From assembly GCF_002532075.1 (NCBI RefSeq), contig NZ_LYXE01000153.1, forward strand, positions 1-32,095: 32,095 nucleotides of DNA, in the 5' to 3' direction. The notes under the pieces were generated by a model that saw only the letters and a program-made list of their open reading frames with translations, had not been told where the DNA came from and ran no database searches. Below are positions 192 through 11,519 of this stretch, piece after piece. Source of the stretch: Candidatus Chloroploca asiatica. Lineage in GTDB: Bacteria; Chloroflexota; Chloroflexia; Chloroflexales; Chloroflexaceae. Position numbers and translations under genes: made by a program. Positions within the stretch are counted from its first letter, which is position 1, and each line of letters starts with the position of its first letter.

Positions 192-3059
192 CTACCCCCC
201 GCCCATGGCGGTCAGGCTCCCCCAAACAAGCGGTGAAACGAGGATGGCATCAGGATCGTCGCTGGCAATGGTACGGGCACGTTGAATCAGGGTACGCTGA
301 CTCGCCGCCAGGGCTGTCGGTGCATCGGTACCCTGGCTGAGGCGGTCGTAGAGCGGCGGTAACATCTCAGGCAAAGCGCGATCATAGAGCTGCCAGAGAC
401 TCGCGATGACGTCGCGTGCGCCGCTCGCCAGAAAGGCGCGTCCCAGGTTCAAGACTTCTTCGCCAGGCAAGACTTCGCTCACCATGGTTTCACACGCCGA
501 AAGCACCACCAGCGCTCCATCCAGTTGCAGCCGCATCGCCTCGTCAGCCTGCAAATCGGAGTCCCATAACTTGAGATGCGCCAGCAAGCCTTTGCTAGCA
601 TAGACCTGTCCATGCATGGCAAAGTGGATCAGGCCAAACTGTCGCAGCGTACCCTCGGACGCCGCACGCAACAGGTGTTCGCGAGTGGCCTCCTCGTTCT
701 CCCAGCGCTCCGTCGGGCCTTGCCAGCGCTCAGCCACCAGATCGAGCGTCAGCGCCACGCCTGGCAAGGCTTTGGCACGCTCGCCAAACTCACTGACGCC
801 TAGCAGCAAGCCGGCACGCTGCGTGGCCTGCCGTCGATAGAGCGTTGACCAGGTGCCAAGCGCCGGCAGGATCTGGATTGTCGCACATTCGACCAACCAG
901 CGGCCCTCCATGCGCAAAGTGGCCCAGGGGATCGCGTGGAGCATCCCAGCAGGGACGATCAGCAGGCGTTGCGCTGGTTCCAGCGCACTCCAGACCTCAC
1001 GAGGAATCAACCGCTCACCCAACGTCTCCAGGGTAGCCCAGCACGTCGCTGGATCGCCAAGACCGCCATACGTCATCATGCGACGCGCTGGTTGCGTCGC
1101 CCGTTGGAGCGCCTGCCGCAGGGTCTGGTCATCGGCAATCGGGTAGAGTACGAGCCGATCAATTGTCACAACCACGGCAAGCATGCCACTTGCAACCTCA
1201 AGGTAAAAGAGCGCCATCCATCCTTCGGGATAGGCCACCGACCACGCCGCACGTAATTCCTCAAGATCCGGCGTCACTTCGGGTGGTTGGGGCAGGGGCA
1301 CCTGGTGACGTGCCCGCAACAAGAGGTCAACATAACCATCCAATGCGGCATCAAGCGCGGCTCCGGTCATCTTCTGATTCAGTGCCTCGCTGAGCGTAGC
1401 ACTATTGCTCACCAGTTCACCCTGAAACTCCTGGGGCACCCATACCTGCGAACTGTTCATCTGGCGACGCAAGGCCAGCGCCCGCTGCGAGTCGGCCAGT
1501 TCAACCACGGCCTGCGGATCATCGAGCTCCTGGGCAAGGCGCAATGAAGCGTTGAAGAGATCCATTGCCATCTGAAAGATCCCGCTCGAGGCGTGCTCGC
1601 TCGCCAGACGCCGCCGCAGGTCGGCAATAAGGCGAACGGCGGCGCGATAGTGGCCCAGGGCCGCTGTGCGATCGCCCATGACCTCGACGCAACGCCCAAA
1701 CCCATACAGCGCCCGCCAGCGATGGTTCAGCCGACCCTCAAGGTGAGGCAAGGCTGCCTCAAAGCGTTCACGAGCAGCAGCGGCATCACCGGCGCGCAAC
1801 TGGATCCAACCCTGTTCGATCATACTCTCGGCCGCCGAGGGCAGATTGCCTTCGCGGCGTACGATCGTTTCGGCTTGTCGAAACCGTTCCAGCGCTGCTT
1901 CACCGGCCCCCAGATCATCAAGGGCATAGGCTTGCGCTTGCAACACCTCGCCATACTCAAGCCGGTTGCCCAGTTGCTGTAATTCCTCGGCCACTGGCTC
2001 AAGCAACGCCAGGCTCTCGTGGGAACGTTGCAGCAGCCGCAGGGCCAGGGCCTGATTGCGTCGACTCAGGATCGCCTGTGGCCGCAAGCCAAGGCGCTCG
2101 AAGCTTGCTTCGGCACGCCGATACGAGGCGAGGGCAAGCTCGAAGAGACCACTGTAATAGGCACTATTGCCAAGATTCAGGTCGCATTCCGCAACATGTG
2201 ACGCCCGCCCAAGGGCCTGAAAACGGGCACGCGCCTGACTAAACGCGGCAATGCCCTCATCATAACGGCCCAGACCATTGGCCGCGATGCCAATCCGCTT
2301 TTCGCAATACCCGATGTTCTGCTCACTGCCGTAGCGGGCAAAGATCCTGGTCAATGCATACAACTCATCAATGCATCCGGCCATATCTTCACGACGCAAC
2401 GCAATCATCGTCGCCTCAGCACGCGTAATCGCCACATCAAACCCGTACCCGAACGCCTCAAACCAAGCCCGAGCCCGCGCAAAGGCATCAAGAGCATCAT
2501 CGAGCCGACTGATATTTGAGAGCGCGATCCCGCACGAGCGCGCAAGGCGGGCATGATCAGCCAGCGTGCCCAGATCCTCGAGGGTCGGCTGGAGCTCCTC
2601 GGCGAGAGCCAAGGCCTCGCGCTGGTGCCCGCGCAGATTCAGCAGCGCAACCTCCTCCATGCGCGTGCGGAGCACTTCATCATGCAGACCAGCCGCTGCA
2701 AACGCCTGAGCCAGTTCACGCACAGCGGCCAGCGGATCGGCGATCTGCTCAAGCATCCGCAGCGCCTGAATCCGTGCACGCTGGACATAGAGTCCGGCGA
2801 TAGATAACCCCAGCGTCGCACAGCCTTCGCGGGCAACCTCAAGCATCGCCAACGCCGCGTGGATCTGATCGCAGCGCAACAGCGCAATCCCAAGCGTCAT
2901 CGCCGCATGGGCCTTCTCTTCGGGTGTACGATCAACCGCAGCGTGCCAAGCCCTTTGCGCCAGCGCAAGCCCACGTTGCGGCGCACGCGCGCTGATCGTC
3001 AAGATGCGGGCGCATGCCAGGGGCGTATGGGGGTGATCAAGGGTTAGCTGTAGCATCAT
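192..3059 (-). CDS. TPR-repeat protein with C-terminal CHAT (caspase-like) peptidase domain
   Basis: This 955-residue protein begins with roughly 500 residues of helical TPR-like repeats rich in Ala, Leu and Arg, with recurrent A-L-A and Y-x-x-A patterns (for example DEGIAAFSQARARFQALG). The C-terminal third is a CHAT domain. It has the His motif HFAMHG (His about 816) and the Cys motif VVLSACET (Cys about 856), followed by the family pattern GEEVLNLGRAFLASGA and ASLW. Both members of the catalytic dyad are present, so it could be an active cysteine peptidase; TPR arrays in this family usually serve as the sensing or partner-binding part. No signal peptide or membrane segment is seen, so it is probably cytoplasmic. 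The start is a double ATG (MM) immediately after the stop of the cation exchanger gene, with no spacer and no clear ribosome binding site, which implies translational coupling. The substrate is unknown. Confidence 0.9.
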   Translation of the reverse strand: MMLQLTLDHPHTPLACARILTISARAPQRGLALAQRAWHAAVDRTPEEKAHAAMTLGIALLRCDQIHAALAMLEVAREGCATLGLSIAGLYVQRARIQALRMLEQIADPLAAVRELAQAFAAAGLHDEVLRTRMEEVALLNLRGHQREALALAEELQPTLEDLGTLADHARLARSCGIALSNISRLDDALDAFARARAWFEAFGYGFDVAITRAEATMIALRREDMAGCIDELYALTRIFARYGSEQNIGYCEKRIGIAANGLGRYDEGIAAFSQARARFQALGRASHVAECDLNLGNSAYYSGLFELALASYRRAEASFERLGLRPQAILSRRNQALALRLLQRSHESLALLEPVAEELQQLGNRLEYGEVLQAQAYALDDLGAGEAALERFRQAETIVRREGNLPSAAESMIEQGWIQLRAGDAAAARERFEAALPHLEGRLNHRWRALYGFGRCVEVMGDRTAALGHYRAAVRLIADLRRRLASEHASSGIFQMAMDLFNASLRLAQELDDPQAVVELADSQRALALRRQMNSSQVWVPQEFQGELVSNSATLSEALNQKMTGAALDAALDGYVDLLLRARHQVPLPQPPEVTPDLEELRAAWSVAYPEGWMALFYLEVASGMLAVVVTIDRLVLYPIADDQTLRQALQRATQPARRMMTYGGLGDPATCWATLETLGERLIPREVWSALEPAQRLLIVPAGMLHAIPWATLRMEGRWLVECATIQILPALGTWSTLYRRQATQRAGLLLGVSEFGERAKALPGVALTLDLVAERWQGPTERWENEEATREHLLRAASEGTLRQFGLIHFAMHGQVYASKGLLAHLKLWDSDLQADEAMRLQLDGALVVLSACETMVSEVLPGEEVLNLGRAFLASGARDVIASLWQLYDRALPEMLPPLYDRLSQGTDAPTALAASQRTLIQRARTIASDDPDAILVSPLVWGSLTAMGGG

Positions 3060-4384: not shown

Positions 4385-4864
4385 TTAAACCCGCGCTCCC
4401 AAACGCGCTGCCGCCAACTCAACAACCTCTGGTAAAACAAGCCCAGGAATAAAAACATTCCCGCTGCGGATGCGCTGTAGCCGAATCGTAGGATCCTGGG
4501 CCATAGCCCGTGCTTGCTCACTCGTCAACCAGGTCAGTAGGGTCGTGAACTGTTCGGGGCGCATGGATTGTTCGAGCCCGGTGAGGACAGTACGCGCGAG
4601 GCCAAGCAGATTACCTCCAGCCTCCGGGCTCAGCGCTGACGGGGGCAGAGCGATAATCGTTGCCATTGGCCCATCAGGTTGCACGAGCACACGAATGAAA
4701 GCCTCGCCTGGTCGTGGCCCACTTGCATCAAACCCAACCACACTTCCCGTCGTAACCCCGCTGATCGGGATCTCGCGGCTGTCGGTAATCTCGACCCGCG
4801 CCCCGATATCAAAGCCAAGTCCTTCGTACCAGACAATTCCTGCTTCATTGGTATGCTCTGCCAT
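4385..4864 (-). CDS. Hypothetical protein, 159 residues, possible beta-barrel N-terminal half
   Basis: I do not recognise a family. The first 75 residues are rich in Val, Gly and Ile with short beta-strand-like runs (GARVEITDSREIPISGVTTG, SVVGFD, FIRVLVQPDG), which would suit a small SH3- or KOW-like barrel. The rest is helical and Ala/Leu-rich. There is no signal peptide or membrane segment. It lies 16 bases after the methyltransferase stop codon, and its ribosome binding site AAGGAG overlaps that stop (TAAGGAG), so the two are probably one operon. Its TAA stop falls in the target duplication of the MITE-like element, so the insertion ended exactly at the gene without changing the last residues (GARV). 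Confidence 0.75.
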   Translation of the reverse strand: MAEHTNEAGIVWYEGLGFDIGARVEITDSREIPISGVTTGSVVGFDASGPRPGEAFIRVLVQPDGPMATIIALPPSALSPEAGGNLLGLARTVLTGLEQSMRPEQFTTLLTWLTSEQARAMAQDPTIRLQRIRSGNVFIPGLVLPEVVELAAARLGARV

Positions 4865-4880: not shown

Positions 4881-5585
4881 TTACCCGACGCACTTGCGCC
4901 CCGAGACGATCAGCAAGACGGCGGCTATTTCCGGTTCACCAATGTTGACCGGCAAGCCAGGTGCGCCGATTGCCGCTGACGCGGTCTTCAAGTGAACAGT
5001 GGCCGCATCCACCAGCGGCATCCAGGCAAGCTCTACGGGCTGATCGGCTGCCTCAAGCAGGTAGGCCGCGATCCGCACATCAGCCAAACCACTCGCTTCA
5101 ACAGTACGCCGCAGCGTGCCTCCCAGATCGTCAGCCGGTTCTGGTGGTTGCATCGCGCTCGGCACCGATCCGGCAGGCCAGGTACGCCGCCGAACCCAGT
5201 AGTCGCCAGCCACTGCAAGAACGACCGTTCCTCCAGGTCGCAGCGTCCGCTGTATCTCCTCCAACACACCCGCTTGATCAGCAAAGAGGTGGAGTGCCGC
5301 GACACACCAGATCAGATCGACTTGCGCCGTGCCAAGCGGCAGATGGTGAGTGTCGGCAACGAGATAGGCCACACCTGCACTCTTGCGATCGGCAAGCTGC
5401 GTGCGATCAAGATCAAGCGCTAGCACGCAACCACCGGGCTGACTCATAGCCGCAAGCCACGCCGTTTTATGCCCATCACCAGCAGCAAGATCAAGGGCAA
5501 CAACGGCCCCCTCAGGGCTGGCCTGGCTCAAAGCCACCCGTATAAGCTCGGCATATGGCTCGTGCAACACGGCATAGTCATTCAT
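4881..5585 (-). CDS. Class I SAM-dependent methyltransferase
   Basis: A 234-residue protein with a Rossmann-type methyltransferase core of the Methyltransf_11 type. Motif I is VVALDLAAGDGHKT (about residues 27-40), the acidic end of strand beta2 is in VLALDLD, motif II/III lies around ADTHHLPLGTAQVDLIWC, and LRPGGTVVLA is the usual post-core strand. The first residues (MNDYAVLHEPYAELI) match the short N-terminal helix common in these enzymes. The substrate cannot be read from sequence: the C-terminal 80 residues that would decide it have no recognised signature. It is probably the first gene of an operon with the 159-residue protein and is divergent from the cyanophycin-synthetase-like gene, 47 bases away. 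Confidence 0.85.
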   Translation of the reverse strand: MNDYAVLHEPYAELIRVALSQASPEGAVVALDLAAGDGHKTAWLAAMSQPGGCVLALDLDRTQLADRKSAGVAYLVADTHHLPLGTAQVDLIWCVAALHLFADQAGVLEEIQRTLRPGGTVVLAVAGDYWVRRRTWPAGSVPSAMQPPEPADDLGGTLRRTVEASGLADVRIAAYLLEAADQPVELAWMPLVDAATVHLKTASAAIGAPGLPVNIGEPEIAAVLLIVSGRKCVG

Positions 5586-5632: not shown

Positions 5633-6574
5633 ATGACTTCACCAATTGAAATCATTCAACTCGTGGCCTACGATGGCCCCAACATTCTTTCGCCCTCACC
5701 GGGGGTGATGCTGCTGGTGCGCTCGGATCAGCACCGCAGCGACCGCATGCGATCCGCTATCAAAGATGCGGCGCAATTTATTGGCCTGGTGCTCGCCAAT
5801 CTCGACGTCACTGCCGACGCCGACGCCGAGGGGGTGCTGATGACGGCAACCTTCGATACCGCCATGCCCGGCATCGGTGCCGCGCTCTGCGCATATGTCG
5901 TCACCGGCATGAACCACGAGGCCCTGGGTGATGAGCAATGGGATCGTAACGCCCCCCTGTACACCTTGCAGGCCCGACGACGGCGCGAAGCACTCCCTGT
6001 GGCGATCCTCCAGTTAATGGCCGAAGCGTACCAACGCGGCTTGCCAACCTTTATGCGCGAGGATGGGTTGCTGCAGATCGGCTATGGCGCAAAAGGTTGG
6101 AGCATTGATCCCGAACAGGTCGCCGGGTCTGGGGAAAAGCCGCCCCCGGTACCCTGGGATGACCTTGGTGTCGTGACGGTGATCGCAGTCACCGGCGAAG
6201 AGCAACGCGCCGCAACAGTAAGCCATTTGGTCACCACATATCAGTCCACAGCGCGCCATGTGGTAAGCCATCCTGCAGCCACCTTTGACAAGGCGCGTCG
6301 TTTGCTGGCCGATCCATCGGCTGAGGTTGTGATCCTTGGGCTAGCAACCGGCGACCTAGTGCGTCGTGGGTTACCGTTTGACCGCTGCGAGCTCGCCTTC
6401 ATCACTGATCGGGCAGGCCCACGCCCGTCTGAAGCCGCAAACGACGAAGCATGGGTGCGCGCCCTCGGCTTGCCCATGCTGCTCTCACCACAACCTGTAC
6501 GACTCAACCTGAGGGATCCTGGCTTGCAGTCGCTGGTGCCCTATGCGCCCAATGGTGTGCTTGCGCTGAGTTAG
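5633..6574 (+). CDS. Cyanophycin synthetase-related protein lacking ATP-grasp domain; degenerate Mur-ligase-like domain
   Basis: A 313-residue protein that I read as a reduced relative of cyanophycin synthetase (CphA). Residues 1-160 resemble the CphA N-terminal domain: YDGPNILSPSPG near the start, and RGLPTFMREDGLLQIGYGAK (about residues 136-155), which parallels the CphA segment RGIP-x-x-R-L-N-x-x-S-L-V-Q-LGYG. The ATP-grasp domain expected next is absent. Residues 180-260 instead resemble the CphA Mur-ligase domain: VIAVTGEEQRAAT stands where VTGTNGKTTT should be, and LATGDLVRRGLPFDRCEL parallels ETARGGILRxGLGFDRCD. The P-loop lysine and threonines are lost, so ATP-dependent ligation is very unlikely. 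A binding, scaffold or regulatory role is possible, but this is inference. It stands alone between divergent and convergent neighbours, with its stop 3 bases from that of the exonuclease gene. No cphA or cphB is in the window. Confidence 0.75.
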   Translation: MTSPIEIIQLVAYDGPNILSPSPGVMLLVRSDQHRSDRMRSAIKDAAQFIGLVLANLDVTADADAEGVLMTATFDTAMPGIGAALCAYVVTGMNHEALGDEQWDRNAPLYTLQARRRREALPVAILQLMAEAYQRGLPTFMREDGLLQIGYGAKGWSIDPEQVAGSGEKPPPVPWDDLGVVTVIAVTGEEQRAATVSHLVTTYQSTARHVVSHPAATFDKARRLLADPSAEVVILGLATGDLVRRGLPFDRCELAFITDRAGPRPSEAANDEAWVRALGLPMLLSPQPVRLNLRDPGLQSLVPYAPNGVLALS

Positions 6575-7497: not shown

Positions 7498-9354
7498 CTA
7501 GCCCAAGCGTCCCGTCTGATAGGTCATTGCCACAGAACGCTGAATCCGGGCAATAATCTGTAGCGACTCTTTCAATTCACGGCGTTCCAGTGGACTCAAC
7601 TGAGGAAAAACGACCAGATTAGTCGGTTCCTCACCACGAGCAATTTGTTGCTGCTGATGCCGCAGCCGCAAGAGACTCAGCAATTCAAACGCATCAGCAA
7701 GGCCTTCAGCGGCAGCCTGACTGACACTCGCCGTCGGCCACGAGGCCTGGAGACGCGAAAGCGTACCGGTTTCTGTGCGACCTGCTTCGAGGGCAAAGAG
7801 GCGGGCCAGATCGACGACCATGGCCGTACCGCGTGTCTTGAGATCAATGCGTTCGTCGTCAAGGGCCACCGAACGGAAGAAGGTCAACGGTGGTGTCGCA
7901 CGCAGGGCTGCCCGAGCCAGGCGAGCGAGGAAGATCGTATTGCCCTGAGACCGTGCGATCACCGGGCGCAACCCCGCCTCGGCATCGAGATCGCCATACA
8001 ATTGACGATAATCAAAAAAGATCGAACTACGCAGCAGCGCCTCTTCTTCGGGGACATCGATCCAGCGCCGGAACATCGCCTGCCAGGAAGCAAGCGGTTG
8101 ACACCACTGCGGATTGGTCGCCATCACATCGCCGGGACAGCGCGGAAAGCCACACGCCACCAACTGCTCGACCATCATATGGGCAAGCTTACGAAAATAG
8201 GCTGCTGCCTCAGGGGGGGCATCATCAGCATAGATCAGGGCATTATCCTGATCGGTGCGCAGCGTCTGTTCGAGGCGCCCCTCACTACCCAACACGACCC
8301 ATGCATAGGGCACCGGCGGCGGCCCGATCTCCATTTCGATATCACGCAAGAGACGGCGATGCAAGGCATCATGGGCCACAGCGACTACCCGCCCGATATC
8401 GGCAATCCGTGCCCCCGCATCAAGCAACCCACTGACGGTCATTGCCACCTGATCAGTATAGTTACGCAGTTCATCAAGCCCGGTCGCCCGATCAACCTGG
8501 CGGGGCAAAAAGACGGGACTGCGGCTCTGGCGGCGCAGGATATCGGTGTTAGTCACCATCCCAACCACAACCCCCTGTTCGCTTATGGGCAGGTGATGGA
8601 TACCCCGTTCGAGCATCAACAACAGGCCCTCGAAGGCCAGACTTTCAGTTGATAACGAGAGCGCCGGAGCCGTCATCACTTCACGTACGAGCGTATCAGC
8701 CGGAAGGCCGGCGGCAAGCACGCGATTCCGCAAATCACGATCGGTAATAATCCCCGTATTATGATCAAGTATGCCAATAGGCGGAAGATCAACCAAGAGA
8801 CAGGAAATACCCTCTTTGCTCATCAATTGGGCTGCTTCACGCACCGTCGCATCGGGTGAAATCACCATCAGCGAACGTCGCACGAGATCGCCGAGGCGCG
8901 TCTGAAAGAGCGCCGGATCGGCTCTATCCTGGCGCACCTTCAGTGCGAAGCCGAGCCGATCAAAAGCGACGGCAGCAAAAAAGCGATGAAAGGCCGGATT
9001 TTCCTCACGAAGGCGATGAAACAGTTCCGAGGGGAGCATATAGGCCAGGGTCTCGGTATGGGCTCGTACCGTCACCGCCGGAGCTTGATCGCGGATCAAC
9101 GACGGATACCCAAAAGCCTCACCAGGACCGAGGGTATCAAAAATCTCAATCTCGCTCCCAGTTTCGCGCAACAGATCAACGCCACCTTTGCGCACAATAT
9201 ATAAAAATTTTGCCGGAGCACCGCCAAACTCAAGAATTGTCTGACCAGCGGTAAAATACTCAATCTGCATCCCCCGGGCGGCCCGTGTGACAGCTTGAGG
9301 AGGCAACTGATCAAAAGGCGGATAACCGGTCAAAAAAGACGTAATCTCTTCCAT
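7498..9354 (-). CDS. cNMP-binding / CBS / DUF294 putative nucleotidyltransferase
   Basis: About 618 residues, with domains in the order usual for this family. First comes a cyclic-nucleotide-binding fold (about 1-120, with FTAGQTILEFGGAPAKFLYI and GPGEAFGYPSL). Next are two CBS domains (about 160-285, with the second ending MVTNTDILRR). Then comes a nucleotidyltransferase-like DUF294 domain with GSEGRLEQTLRTDQDNALIY (about residues 350-370), and a helical C-terminal domain. The GS and DxD-type residues of the transferase are present. The family is often thought to link nucleotide sensing to acetate or transport genes, but its substrate is not established. A longer frame begins at a TTG at 9366; I prefer the ATG at 9354, because the GGAGG upstream would touch the TTG directly. 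Its downstream neighbour is the DEDDh exonuclease. Confidence 0.9.
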   Translation of the reverse strand: MEEITSFLTGYPPFDQLPPQAVTRAARGMQIEYFTAGQTILEFGGAPAKFLYIVRKGGVDLLRETGSEIEIFDTLGPGEAFGYPSLIRDQAPAVTVRAHTETLAYMLPSELFHRLREENPAFHRFFAAVAFDRLGFALKVRQDRADPALFQTRLGDLVRRSLMVISPDATVREAAQLMSKEGISCLLVDLPPIGILDHNTGIITDRDLRNRVLAAGLPADTLVREVMTAPALSLSTESLAFEGLLLMLERGIHHLPISEQGVVVGMVTNTDILRRQSRSPVFLPRQVDRATGLDELRNYTDQVAMTVSGLLDAGARIADIGRVVAVAHDALHRRLLRDIEMEIGPPPVPYAWVVLGSEGRLEQTLRTDQDNALIYADDAPPEAAAYFRKLAHMMVEQLVACGFPRCPGDVMATNPQWCQPLASWQAMFRRWIDVPEEEALLRSSIFFDYRQLYGDLDAEAGLRPVIARSQGNTIFLARLARAALRATPPLTFFRSVALDDERIDLKTRGTAMVVDLARLFALEAGRTETGTLSRLQASWPTASVSQAAAEGLADAFELLSLLRLRHQQQQIARGEEPTNLVVFPQLSPLERRELKESLQIIARIQRSVAMTYQTGRLG

Positions 9355-9514
9355 AAAAGACCACAACCTCCACCCGACTCAACGCAGAGTGTGTATGCAG
9401 TGCGACGCTGACCGTAACACAACACACGCCGGTGGCCCAGGTACAGGTCTCATGGTTCTGTCCCGAGTCACCGGCGCATGCAAAGCCCGCTCCTATCTCT
9501 GGCCGCACAGAAGG

Positions 9515-9922
9515 CTAACGACGCTCAATCAGCAAACGGATAGCGGTACGTTCTTCATCGTCAATCGCCACGTCAATAAACGAAGGGATACAGATGATAT
9601 CAATACCCTCTTCATTCAAATAGCTGCGTGCAATTGCCACGGCCTTGATCGCTTGATTCGTAGCCCCGGCCCCAATCGACTGAACTTCAGCCATGCCGCT
9701 CTCGCGGATCACGCCAGCAATTGCGCCAGCGACGGCACTTGGTCGTGAACGAGTAGACACCTTTAAGACTTCGGCGGAGCGCTGGACCTCACCCGCAGCG
9801 GGTGAACTGGCCCCAACAGCGCGCGCAATGGGTAATGACTGAGCATTAGTCATTCTGTCCTCCTGAGGGTCGGTTGTTAATGATTCGATCGGCAGGTCAT
9901 CAGACGGCATCCCAAGGCTCAT
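9515..9922 (-). CDS. spoVS: Stage V sporulation protein S homologue (SpoVS)
   Basis: The last 86 residues match SpoVS closely: EVLKVSTRSRPSAVAGAIAG, then SIGAGATNQAIKAVAIARSY and DEERTAIRLLIE. This is a small nucleic-acid-binding Alba-like fold that in Bacillus affects sporulation and septation and is widespread in non-sporulating Deinococcota and Chloroflexota. Two starts are credible. The ATG at 9922 (135 residues) is preceded by AAGGAGG with a 10-base spacer, and the ATG at 9853 (112 residues) by AGGAGG with a 5-base spacer. Both give an N-terminal tail longer than the Bacillus protein. The gene follows RNase Y by 64 bases; in Bacillus subtilis rny, ymdB and spoVS are adjacent, and here ymdB is missing. 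Confidence 0.92.
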   Translation of the reverse strand: MSLGMPSDDLPIESLTTDPQEDRMTNAQSLPIARAVGASSPAAGEVQRSAEVLKVSTRSRPSAVAGAIAGVIRESGMAEVQSIGAGATNQAIKAVAIARSYLNEEGIDIICIPSFIDVAIDDEERTAIRLLIERR

Positions 9923-9986
9923 AGTGCCCAGTCCTCCTTCCGGTTACGATGCTGTCTACAACTTGCGGTACTGGAATTGTACCATG

Positions 9987-11519
9987 CTACCGTGCATAAT
10001 CAACTGCTCGAGTCTCGCGAATGATCGTCACCTTGATCTGGCCCGGATACTGCAGACTCTCTTCGATCTTTTTGGCGACATCCCGGGCCAGGTGGATGCT
10101 GGCAAGATCATCAATCTGGTCAGGCTGAACAAGAACGCGAACTTCACGCCCAGCCTGCACGGCAAAGGCCCGTTGTACCCCTGGAAACGATGTTGCCACG
10201 GTTTCCAAGGCTTCTAGGCGCTTGATATAGAGATCAAGCGTTTCACGGCGTGCCCCGGGTCGCCCGCCCGAGATCGCATCAGCGGCAATGACCAGAAAGG
10301 CCTCGATAGTCGTTGGCTCTTCATCGTAATGATGAGCCGCGATGGCGTGGATAATGCTGGGTGAACGACCCAGCCGACGTGCAATATCTGCGCCGATGAG
10401 CGCATGCGGTCCCTGGACTTCGTGGTCGACCGCTTTGCCAATATCATGCAACAGGGCCGCAGTCTTGGCGACCGTAATATTTGCCCCCAACTCAGCAGCC
10501 ATATGCGCTGCCAACAGTGAGCACTCAAGCGAATGTTGGAGGACATTTTGCCCATAGCTTGTCCGATATTTCAGTCGCCCGAGCAACTTGATTAGATCGG
10601 GATGCAAGCCCTGTACATTCGCTTCATATGCAACGCGTTCACCCTCCTCACGCATAACATGTTCAATCTCAACCTGAGTCTTCTGGACGACCTCTTCGAT
10701 GCGTGACGGATGGATGCGTCCATCTTTCAACAAGCGAGTCAAGGCAACCCGCGCAACTTCACGCCGTACCGGATCATGGCACGACAGCGTCACAGCCTCG
10801 GGGGTGTCATCTACAATAATATCTACACCAGTGAACTGCTCAAAGGCACGAATATTGCGGCCTTCACGACCAATAATGCGCCCTTTCAACTCTTCGCCCG
10901 GCAAGTTCACCGTAGAAACCGTTATTTCTGCCACATAGTCACTGGCACAGCGCTGCACAGCCAGTCCGATGACTTTCCGTGCCGTCTTTTCGGCTTCATC
11001 TTTTGCCTGTTGCTCTATTTCACGAATGAGCCGCGCTGAATCATCACGGGTAACTTGCTCAACCTGCGCCAGAATGATCTCGCGCGCCCCGTCACGCGTC
11101 AGTTGCGAGATCCGCTCAAGCTCTTGCACTTGTTCGTGCTTGAGCCGCTCTGCCTCCTGGTGCAATTGCTCGGTCTGCCGTTCACGTACCTGAAGTTGCC
11201 GCTCACGACGTTCAAAGCTTTCCAGTTTTCGGTCGAGGTTTTCCTCCTTGCGCTGAATGCGCTCTTCCTGTTTTTGCAGGCTTTGCCGAGACTCGCGCAG
11301 TTCTGCTTCCGCGTCATTGCGCACCCGCAGCGCTTCGTCTTTGGCCTGAAGTAAAAGTTCTTTCTGCTGGGAACGCGCCTCTTCGAGGAGGAGGCGAGAC
11401 TCAGCCGCTTTGCGCTGAACCAGGGCGTTGGCTCCATAATTCGTCCACGCAATCCCTATGCCCAGACCAGCGGCTATACCCCCTACCAGGGCCAGCGCAG
11501 CCCAGTATAGCTCGATCAC
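9987..11519 (-). CDS. rny: Ribonuclease Y
   Basis: A 510-residue membrane-anchored endoribonuclease that starts decay of many mRNAs. The layout is canonical: an N-terminal membrane helix (about residues 5-25), a long charged coiled coil (about 30-190), a KH RNA-binding domain with [15 protein letters not shown] (about 213-227), and a metal-binding HD domain with [13 protein letters not shown] (His358-Asp359) and the later [11 protein letters not shown]. Length is close to the usual 510-520. The start codon is GTG with AGGAGG five bases upstream. A strong promoter lies about 100 bases upstream, and spoVS follows in the same direction, presumably co-transcribed. Confidence 0.97.

Follow-up and report, generated by a model that had tools for sequence, protein, structure and literature searches.

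A probable DUF4938 pseudoenzyme of Candidatus Chloroploca asiatica from the cyanophycin-synthetase/Mur-ligase superfamily

The locus and its genes

The window analyzed in this study is the whole stretch of 32,095 nucleotides at positions 1 to 32,095 of Candidatus Chloroploca asiatica contig NZ_LYXE01000153.1. At positions 5633 to 6574 of its forward strand, it carries a gene with an ATG start codon and no internal stop, encoding a protein of 313 amino acids. The product matches the Pfam profile PF16292 (DUF4938) with 281.1 bits against a cut-off of 32, residues 4 to 310 being aligned with positions 1 to 300 of the 302 profile positions, and is thus a full-length member above the curated cut-off. 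The Pfam entry describes a domain of unknown function and names no function. The nearest named records, from Ca. Chloroploca mongolica and Ca. Chloroploca sp. Khr17, contain a homologue with 93% identity. A sequence-only reading of this DNA had proposed a long and intact gene without frameshift for a shrunken relative of cyanophycin synthetase (CphA); the uninterrupted reading frame confirmed the first part of this, and the motifs quoted in support were all present in it.

Families within the order to which the window belongs are labeled f1 to f4, f1 being the window's own family and f4 a sister family. Two-domain ligases consisting of a CphA-type N domain and a Mur-type M domain without ATP-grasp domain are termed N+M ligases, and the inactive DUF4938 proteins short forms. 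The features of the locus are as follows.

4881..5585, reverse strand: class I SAM methyltransferase gene (Methyltransf_11), head to head with the DUF4938 gene
5633..6574, forward strand: DUF4938 gene, 313 amino acids plus stop, inactive remnant of an N+M ligase (pseudoenzyme), from the reading frame, PF16292 and the CphA1 structure match
5633..6142, forward strand: CphA-type N domain, residues 1 to about 170, from the AlphaFold2 model, the CphA1 overlay and the contiguous family-profile match to intact f4 ligases
5879..5893, forward strand: residues 83-87, matched by eye to the HxxEH metallopeptidase helix of CphA1, with loss of the motif (motif from PMC9262961)
6155..6571, forward strand: first half of the Mur-ligase core, residues 175-313, remaining core and lid absent, from the CphA M-domain profile match, Mur ligases in structure searches and alignment with intact ligases
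6194..6214, forward strand: P-loop degenerated to GEEQRAA at residues 188-194, the ligases having GTNGK[TS]T (alignment column counts)
6335..6355, forward strand: LGLATGD at residues 235-241 instead of LETARGG, with Gly at the position of the Mg-binding Glu (column counts; role of the Glu from PMC9427784)
6401..6427, forward strand: ITDRAGPRP, residues 257-265, where ligases carry the DHL stretch, Asp-His gone (column counts; PMC9262961)
6434..6487, forward strand: residues 268-285, most conserved stretch within f1 and candidate new functional surface (window entropies, 19 sequences)

Further genes of the window were recorded as side observations. Beside the methyltransferase gene, an open reading frame of 159 amino acids (4385-4864) gave no Pfam or NCBIfam match, and similar reading frames occur there in a few f1 relatives. 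A TPR-CHAT protein of 955 amino acids (192-3059) has a weak Csx29 match of 35 bits against a cut-off of 300. A protein of 622 amino acids (7498-9366) combines cyclic-nucleotide-binding, CBS, and DUF294 nucleotidyltransferase domains, and at 9515-11519 a SpoVS gene adjoins an RNase Y gene on the same strand.

Domain architecture and lost catalytic residues

An AlphaFold2 model built from 35 family members had a mean pLDDT of 94 and a pTM of 0.89. When overlaid on TeCphA1 (7wae_C), residues 5-313 of the model fell on residues 1-639 of the chain (Z 26.9, rmsd 3.7, 306 residues aligned), and the top Foldseek match was SuCphA1 (7lgj_A, E 2.9e-12). Because TeCphA1 is divided into an N domain (1-161), an ATP-grasp G domain (162-487), and an M domain (488-876) according to PMC9427784, the overlay leaves out the G domain and extends over the N domain plus the beginning of the M core. 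In the model, the fold of the CphA1 N domain is thus found from residue 5 onward. Pfam and NCBIfam searches of the 313 residues gave no ATP-grasp match, and the overlay, the contiguous profile match, and the alignment all place the N domain directly next to the Mur core. The sequence-only reading had already described a CphA-like N domain joined to a Mur-type piece as well as the missing ATP-grasp domain, and had suggested structure prediction against the CphA N and M domains; this was carried out, both halves overlay TeCphA1, and its description of the architecture can be upheld.

At the sequence level, the likeness to CphA is weak and confined to the M part. The NCBIfam CphA models scored 43 bits (residues 208-259) and 29 bits with far higher cut-offs of 877 and 850; for TIGR02068 (CphA1), the score was 29.2 bits against 850. 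With the DUF4938 protein of the window as query, phmmer detected the CphA structure 7lgm in the PDB at E 3e-4, and with the profile of 35 family members the CphA structures 7txv/7lg5 were found through the M part at E 2e-14. The Pfam profile for the CphA N domain (PF18921) matches the genome's own CphA but not the DUF4938 protein, and the phmmer score of the N part against CphA was only 1-6 bits, so that the N domain is assigned from the structure and from its uninterrupted alignment with intact N+M ligases.

In the M domain of TeCphA1, the nucleotide is contacted by the P-loop residue Lys499 and by Mg, which is held by Thr500, Thr522, and Glu558 (PMC9427784), and the M-minus form of SuCphA1 carries the exchanges D585A/H586A (PMC9262961). 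The corresponding columns were inspected in an M-part alignment of 82 proteins, comprising the 35 DUF4938 members from the phylum survey and 47 ligases (7 N+M ligases from f2, 23 other N+M ligases, and 17 CphA). All four catalytic residues, i.e. the P-loop Lys, the Mg-binding Glu, the Asp, and the His, are present in 47 of 47 ligases (17/17 CphA; 30/30 N+M ligases), and each of them is present in none of the 35 DUF4938 members. With GEEQRAA at the P-loop position and the Lys found in 0 of 35 members, the P-loop can be regarded as inactive, as had been supposed from the letters. The first P-loop Gly is retained in 35/35 members, and the position of the Lys is occupied by Arg in 20 of the 35, these being all 20 f1 members; judged from these residues, an anion could still be bound there. 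A motif check of 13 further members from the order census, which are in neither of the trees described below, revealed none of the motifs GxxGK[ST], ET[AS]RGG, and DHL, whereby one of them (G428) is truncated by the end of its contig ahead of the M part and is uninformative and another (G418) is in two pieces and frames.

CphA1 makes primers with a Cx19HxxEH motif, which is present in 83% of nr70 CphA1s and likewise missing in CphA2 (PMC9262961). HxxEH and Cx19HxxEH are absent in 35/35 DUF4938 members, and the genome's own CphA has the motif. An active metallopeptidase N domain was rejected on the basis of this absence. Also the lid and the catalytic residues of the N+M ligase lineage are missing in the short form. 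The product is a DUF4938 member and, as G domain and catalytic residues were both searched for and found missing, neither CphA1 nor CphA2. Its sequence places it in a lineage of N+M ligases whose catalytic features it no longer has.

Intact relatives, distribution, and selection

Full-length ligases of the DUF4938 lineage with intact motifs were found in five of six f4 genomes (G420-G424; loci L160-L164), with one gene each. Their open reading frames of 581-644 amino acids contain GTNGKTT, ETSRGG, and DHL, match the DUF4938 profile contiguously with 278-290 bits, and match CphA through the end of the M domain; the two scanned with Pfam showed DUF4938, Mur_ligase_M, and Mur_ligase_C together. 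A model of one of them (pLDDT 88) overlays 405 residues of TeCphA1 (Z 42.1) and 551 residues of SuCphA1. In G150, the sixth f4 genome, the protein is inactive; it has 394 amino acids, keeps most of the core, and is 38-47% identical to the intact f4 ones.

N+M ligases in general carry the GTNGK[ST]T, ETARGG (ETSRGG in f4), and DH motifs. One f2 genome (G070) has an ATP-grasp-less N+M ligase that matches the 35-member profile contiguously over 5-310 with 105 bits, the remaining six f2 N+M ligases reach 54-62 bits, and CphAs match piecewise with totals up to 67. Outside the order, two-domain ligases adjoin cphA in 21 of 23 examined loci (L113-L135, also L076), which are the non-f2 ones among at least 30 N+M loci listed and in which the N domain is deduced from length and, for some, from weak profile matches, structural confirmation being available for one f4 ligase only. 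The C-terminal part of CphA lies in the same locus and tail to tail in 19 of the 21, and according to the coordinates both genes are on the same strand in G385 and G359. Of the two remaining loci, L134 is cut off by the end of its contig, and no cphA was found within 1.5 kb of L135. As a separate observation, a class-level relative (G246; L077-L080) contains several extra CphA-like open reading frames of about 525-1090 amino acids besides a full cphA.

Two trees were evaluated. In the M-part tree, from which f4 was left out, DUF4938 and the f2 N+M ligases group together, apart from CphA and other N+M ligases, with 99/100 support; a clade of DUF4938 and CphA was not rejected (p 0.146), and long branches were flagged. 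In the N plus M tree, to which the f4 genes were added and from which CphA was left out, the intact f4 genes take a position intermediate between the short forms and the rest of the N+M ligases. The f2 N+M ligases group with this rest (100/100) and not with the short forms. A branch with 93/93 support, not starred, has all short forms on one side, and grouping G150 with the intact f4 genes was not rejected (p 0.274), so that one or two inactivations are possible. From these trees, the intact f4 genes rather than CphA are favored as the nearest intact relatives in the sampled set, and a derivation from N+M ligases is favored over one directly from CphA but not proven, given the long branches and the six f2 N+M ligases that score no higher with the DUF4938 profile than the best CphAs. 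The proposal of a shrunken CphA relative therefore holds for the CphA-like fold; the nearest kin appear to be ATP-grasp-less N+M ligases, with direct descent from CphA not rejected in the M-part tree.

DUF4938 was found in 35 of 400 genomes of the phylum, all 35 belonging to the window's own order, and in none of 14 control genomes, whereas the census of the order found it in 53 of 82 genomes. Orthologues in other Chloroflexota, which had been suggested as a check, thus exist across the order and, within the phylum survey, only there. A match was lacking in 5 of 40 order genomes in the phylum survey and in 29 of 82 in the order census, 15 of the 29 being good-quality genomes; as 26 of the 82 fail 90% completeness or 5% contamination, absences may reflect assembly gaps. 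Renewed searches of the five genomes with the 35-row profile yielded nothing beyond the CphA of G353 and matches at E 0.03 and 0.33. The extent of shortening varies by family, with most f3 members having about 400-425 amino acids (324 in G302), f2 members about 335, and f1 members about 296-360.

The gene is under purifying selection. Pairwise dN/dS was 0.12-0.15 for the three Chloroploca copies, with N and M halves each below 0.24, and 0.10-0.13 for three close Chloroflexus pairs. Six f2 copies gave values of 0.05-0.10 and five f3 copies values of 0.16-0.21; separate halves reached up to 0.26, and other Chloroflexus pairs were left out due to saturated synonymous sites. There was no internal stop inside any DUF4938 match listed in the phylum survey or the order census. 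The assumption that the gene is retained by selection thus agrees with the values for unsaturated pairs, and a frameshifted cphA was rejected because of the uninterrupted reading frame and the purifying selection. Over 19 f1 sequences, the mean entropy was 1.21, with 1.67 for the P-loop and its helix (188-204), where only Gly188 and Arg192 are invariant, 2.05 for residues 205-217, 1.89 for the interdomain linker (159-173), and 0.66 for residues 269-285; the five most conserved windows of 15 residues start at 268-272. Judged by these entropies, the best-kept part of f1 proteins appears to be another surface (268-285) and no longer the old active site. The conserved stretch 253-285 of f1 is not common to f2, f3, and f4 members.

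The start codons of the DUF4938 gene and the methyltransferase gene are separated by 47 bases. In the phylum survey, the methyltransferase adjoins DUF4938 in 18 of 20 f1, 1 of 7 f3, 0 of 7 f2, and 0 of 1 f4 cases. Both genes are present but apart in G375, DUF4938 is missing in G024 and G288 despite the presence of the methyltransferase, and G214 has DUF4938 with no methyltransferase match at E 1e-8. An obligate partnership is unsupported in view of these genomes, and the methyltransferase is a candidate partner with a loose link. Neighbors of the f2 short forms are genes for an alcohol dehydrogenase, a 2Fe-2S protein, and an aldo/keto reductase, in some f3 genomes cadherin-like repeats and an M20 peptidase are encoded nearby, and in the one locus scanned for an intact f4 gene VWA, TPR, and glycosyltransferase genes were found; a common theme among these f2, f3, and intact-f4 neighbors was not detected.

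Possible role and comparison with known systems

We consider it likely that the protein is a repurposed, non-catalytic pseudoenzyme derived from a two-domain ligase, with a role outside cyanophycin metabolism and binding or scaffolding as candidate activity. Its ancestor would have been an ATP-grasp-less ligase in which a CphA-type N domain preceded a complete Mur-type M domain and which, judging from the family, presumably used ATP to link an amino acid to a peptide. Comparison with the intact ligases shows that the lineage lost the lid, a portion of the core, and the residues binding ATP and Mg. Selection retains the fold and the newly conserved residues 268-285, in line with the dN/dS and entropy values. 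The present action is probably non-catalytic and might consist of binding or scaffolding via the cleft between N domain and core or via the new conserved surface, independently of cyanophycin, the head-to-head methyltransferase being one candidate partner.

Alternatively, the N domain and the half-core could cradle cyanophycin and help or restrain CphA, i.e. the protein could be a primer-binding or CphA-regulating subunit, which is the primer-binding or regulatory role of the sequence-only reading taken in a cyanophycin sense. In CphA1, a cyanophycin analogue sits between N domain and M core, which are the parts kept here (PMC9427784). A full cphA, whose presence was to be checked, was found in the own genome at C161:21345-23981, and the intact N+M ligases accompany cyanophycin genes, with cphA and cyanophycinase in 5/5 f4 and 7/7 f2 genomes in addition to the adjacency to cphA outside the order. 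The short form was counted in 48 order genomes, including G428, for which "short" was assumed since the gene is cut by the contig end before the M part. Here, cphA over cut-off was present in 15 of 48 genomes and in 4 of 29 without the gene, a trend in favor of this explanation that was not significant (Fisher p 0.11) and is based on genomes that are not independent. However, no cphA over cut-off was found in 33 of the 48 (with only a fragment in G412), and in 32 of the 33 a cyanophycinase over cut-off is missing as well, some showing weaker matches. Four order genomes have cphA without DUF4938, in the window's own genus cphA is present with no match for cyanophycinase, the cphA of the own genome is on a different contig, and the peptidase motif for primer making is lost in all 35 members. 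According to these counts, the intact ligase goes along with cyanophycin metabolism, on which the short form does not depend. This makes a primer-binding or regulatory role for cyanophycin quite improbable and leaves this earlier suggestion unsupported.

Somewhat less improbable, but still unlikely, is re-use of the fold for a new site, formed from the P-loop Arg or the stretch 253-285, with which the protein would act as an enzyme or bind a nucleotide. This stretch is strongly conserved in f1 and the Arg is found in all f1 members, but the conservation does not extend to the other families, the P-loop and its helix are more variable than the average apart from Gly188 and Arg192, and the Mg-binding Glu is missing. 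A decaying gene that is being lost could be assumed from the shortening, from the order genomes without match, and from G418, a 75% complete draft in which the gene extends over two frames (L168:1980-3060) by a real break or an assembly error. Such decay is very unlikely and was rejected, as it is contradicted by dN/dS of 0.05-0.21 in unsaturated pairs, by the lack of internal stops in the listed matches, and by the compact fold predicted with high confidence.

Beyond the repurposed pseudoenzyme itself, a broader reading is offered tentatively. The DUF4938 lineage may preserve, in living relatives, the way from an amino-acid ligase to a non-catalytic protein, with intact N+M ligases in f4 genomes that have cyanophycin metabolism, the inactive form of G150 with a nearly whole core, and shorter inactive forms elsewhere with a cyanophycin-free role. 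The intact N+M ligases would at the same time represent an undescribed type of the CphA family without ATP-grasp domain that works together with CphA, e.g. in capping, branching, or finishing the polymer.

In the open-licence papers searched, the word DUF4938 was not found, nor was a description of a DUF4938 pseudoenzyme in the literature on cyanophycin in Chloroflexota, CphA2, and Mur-ligase pseudoenzymes, or a description or name of the two-domain ligase adjoining CphA. The protein is best read as a pseudoenzyme of the cyanophycin-synthetase/Mur-ligase superfamily with living intact sisters. A domain of unknown function thereby gains an origin, most of its members being inactive ligases. As intact and inactive forms of one lineage occur in one order, loss of catalysis and gain of a role become testable by exchange, and the two-domain Mur-type ligase accompanying CphA in many Chloroflexota is relevant to cyanophycin research.

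With regard to Pfam DUF4938, the protein is a full-length member, and the family is here seen to hold both intact Mur-type ligases and inactive remnants. Its N domain and the half M core that follows are arranged as in CphA1 (TIGR02068; Z 26.9, 306 residues), but unlike CphA1 the short form has no ATP-grasp domain, lid, P-loop Lys, Mg-binding Glu, Asp-His, or HxxEH. CphA2 keeps and uses its G domain as an active part, whereas the DUF4938 protein has none. Common to both are the missing Cx19HxxEH motif (PMC9262961) and a structural match with Z 20.1 and 17.5. The domain order of the Chloroflexota N+M ligases is the same, with a contiguous profile match for the f4 ligases and that of G070, but those enzymes keep the catalytic residues and the lid, which the short form does not. 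With MurC/D/E/F, finally, the protein shares half of the Mur central-domain fold, with Z up to 15.6 (MurF, 137 residues), and differs from them by its CphA-type N-terminal domain and by the missing lid and catalytic residues.
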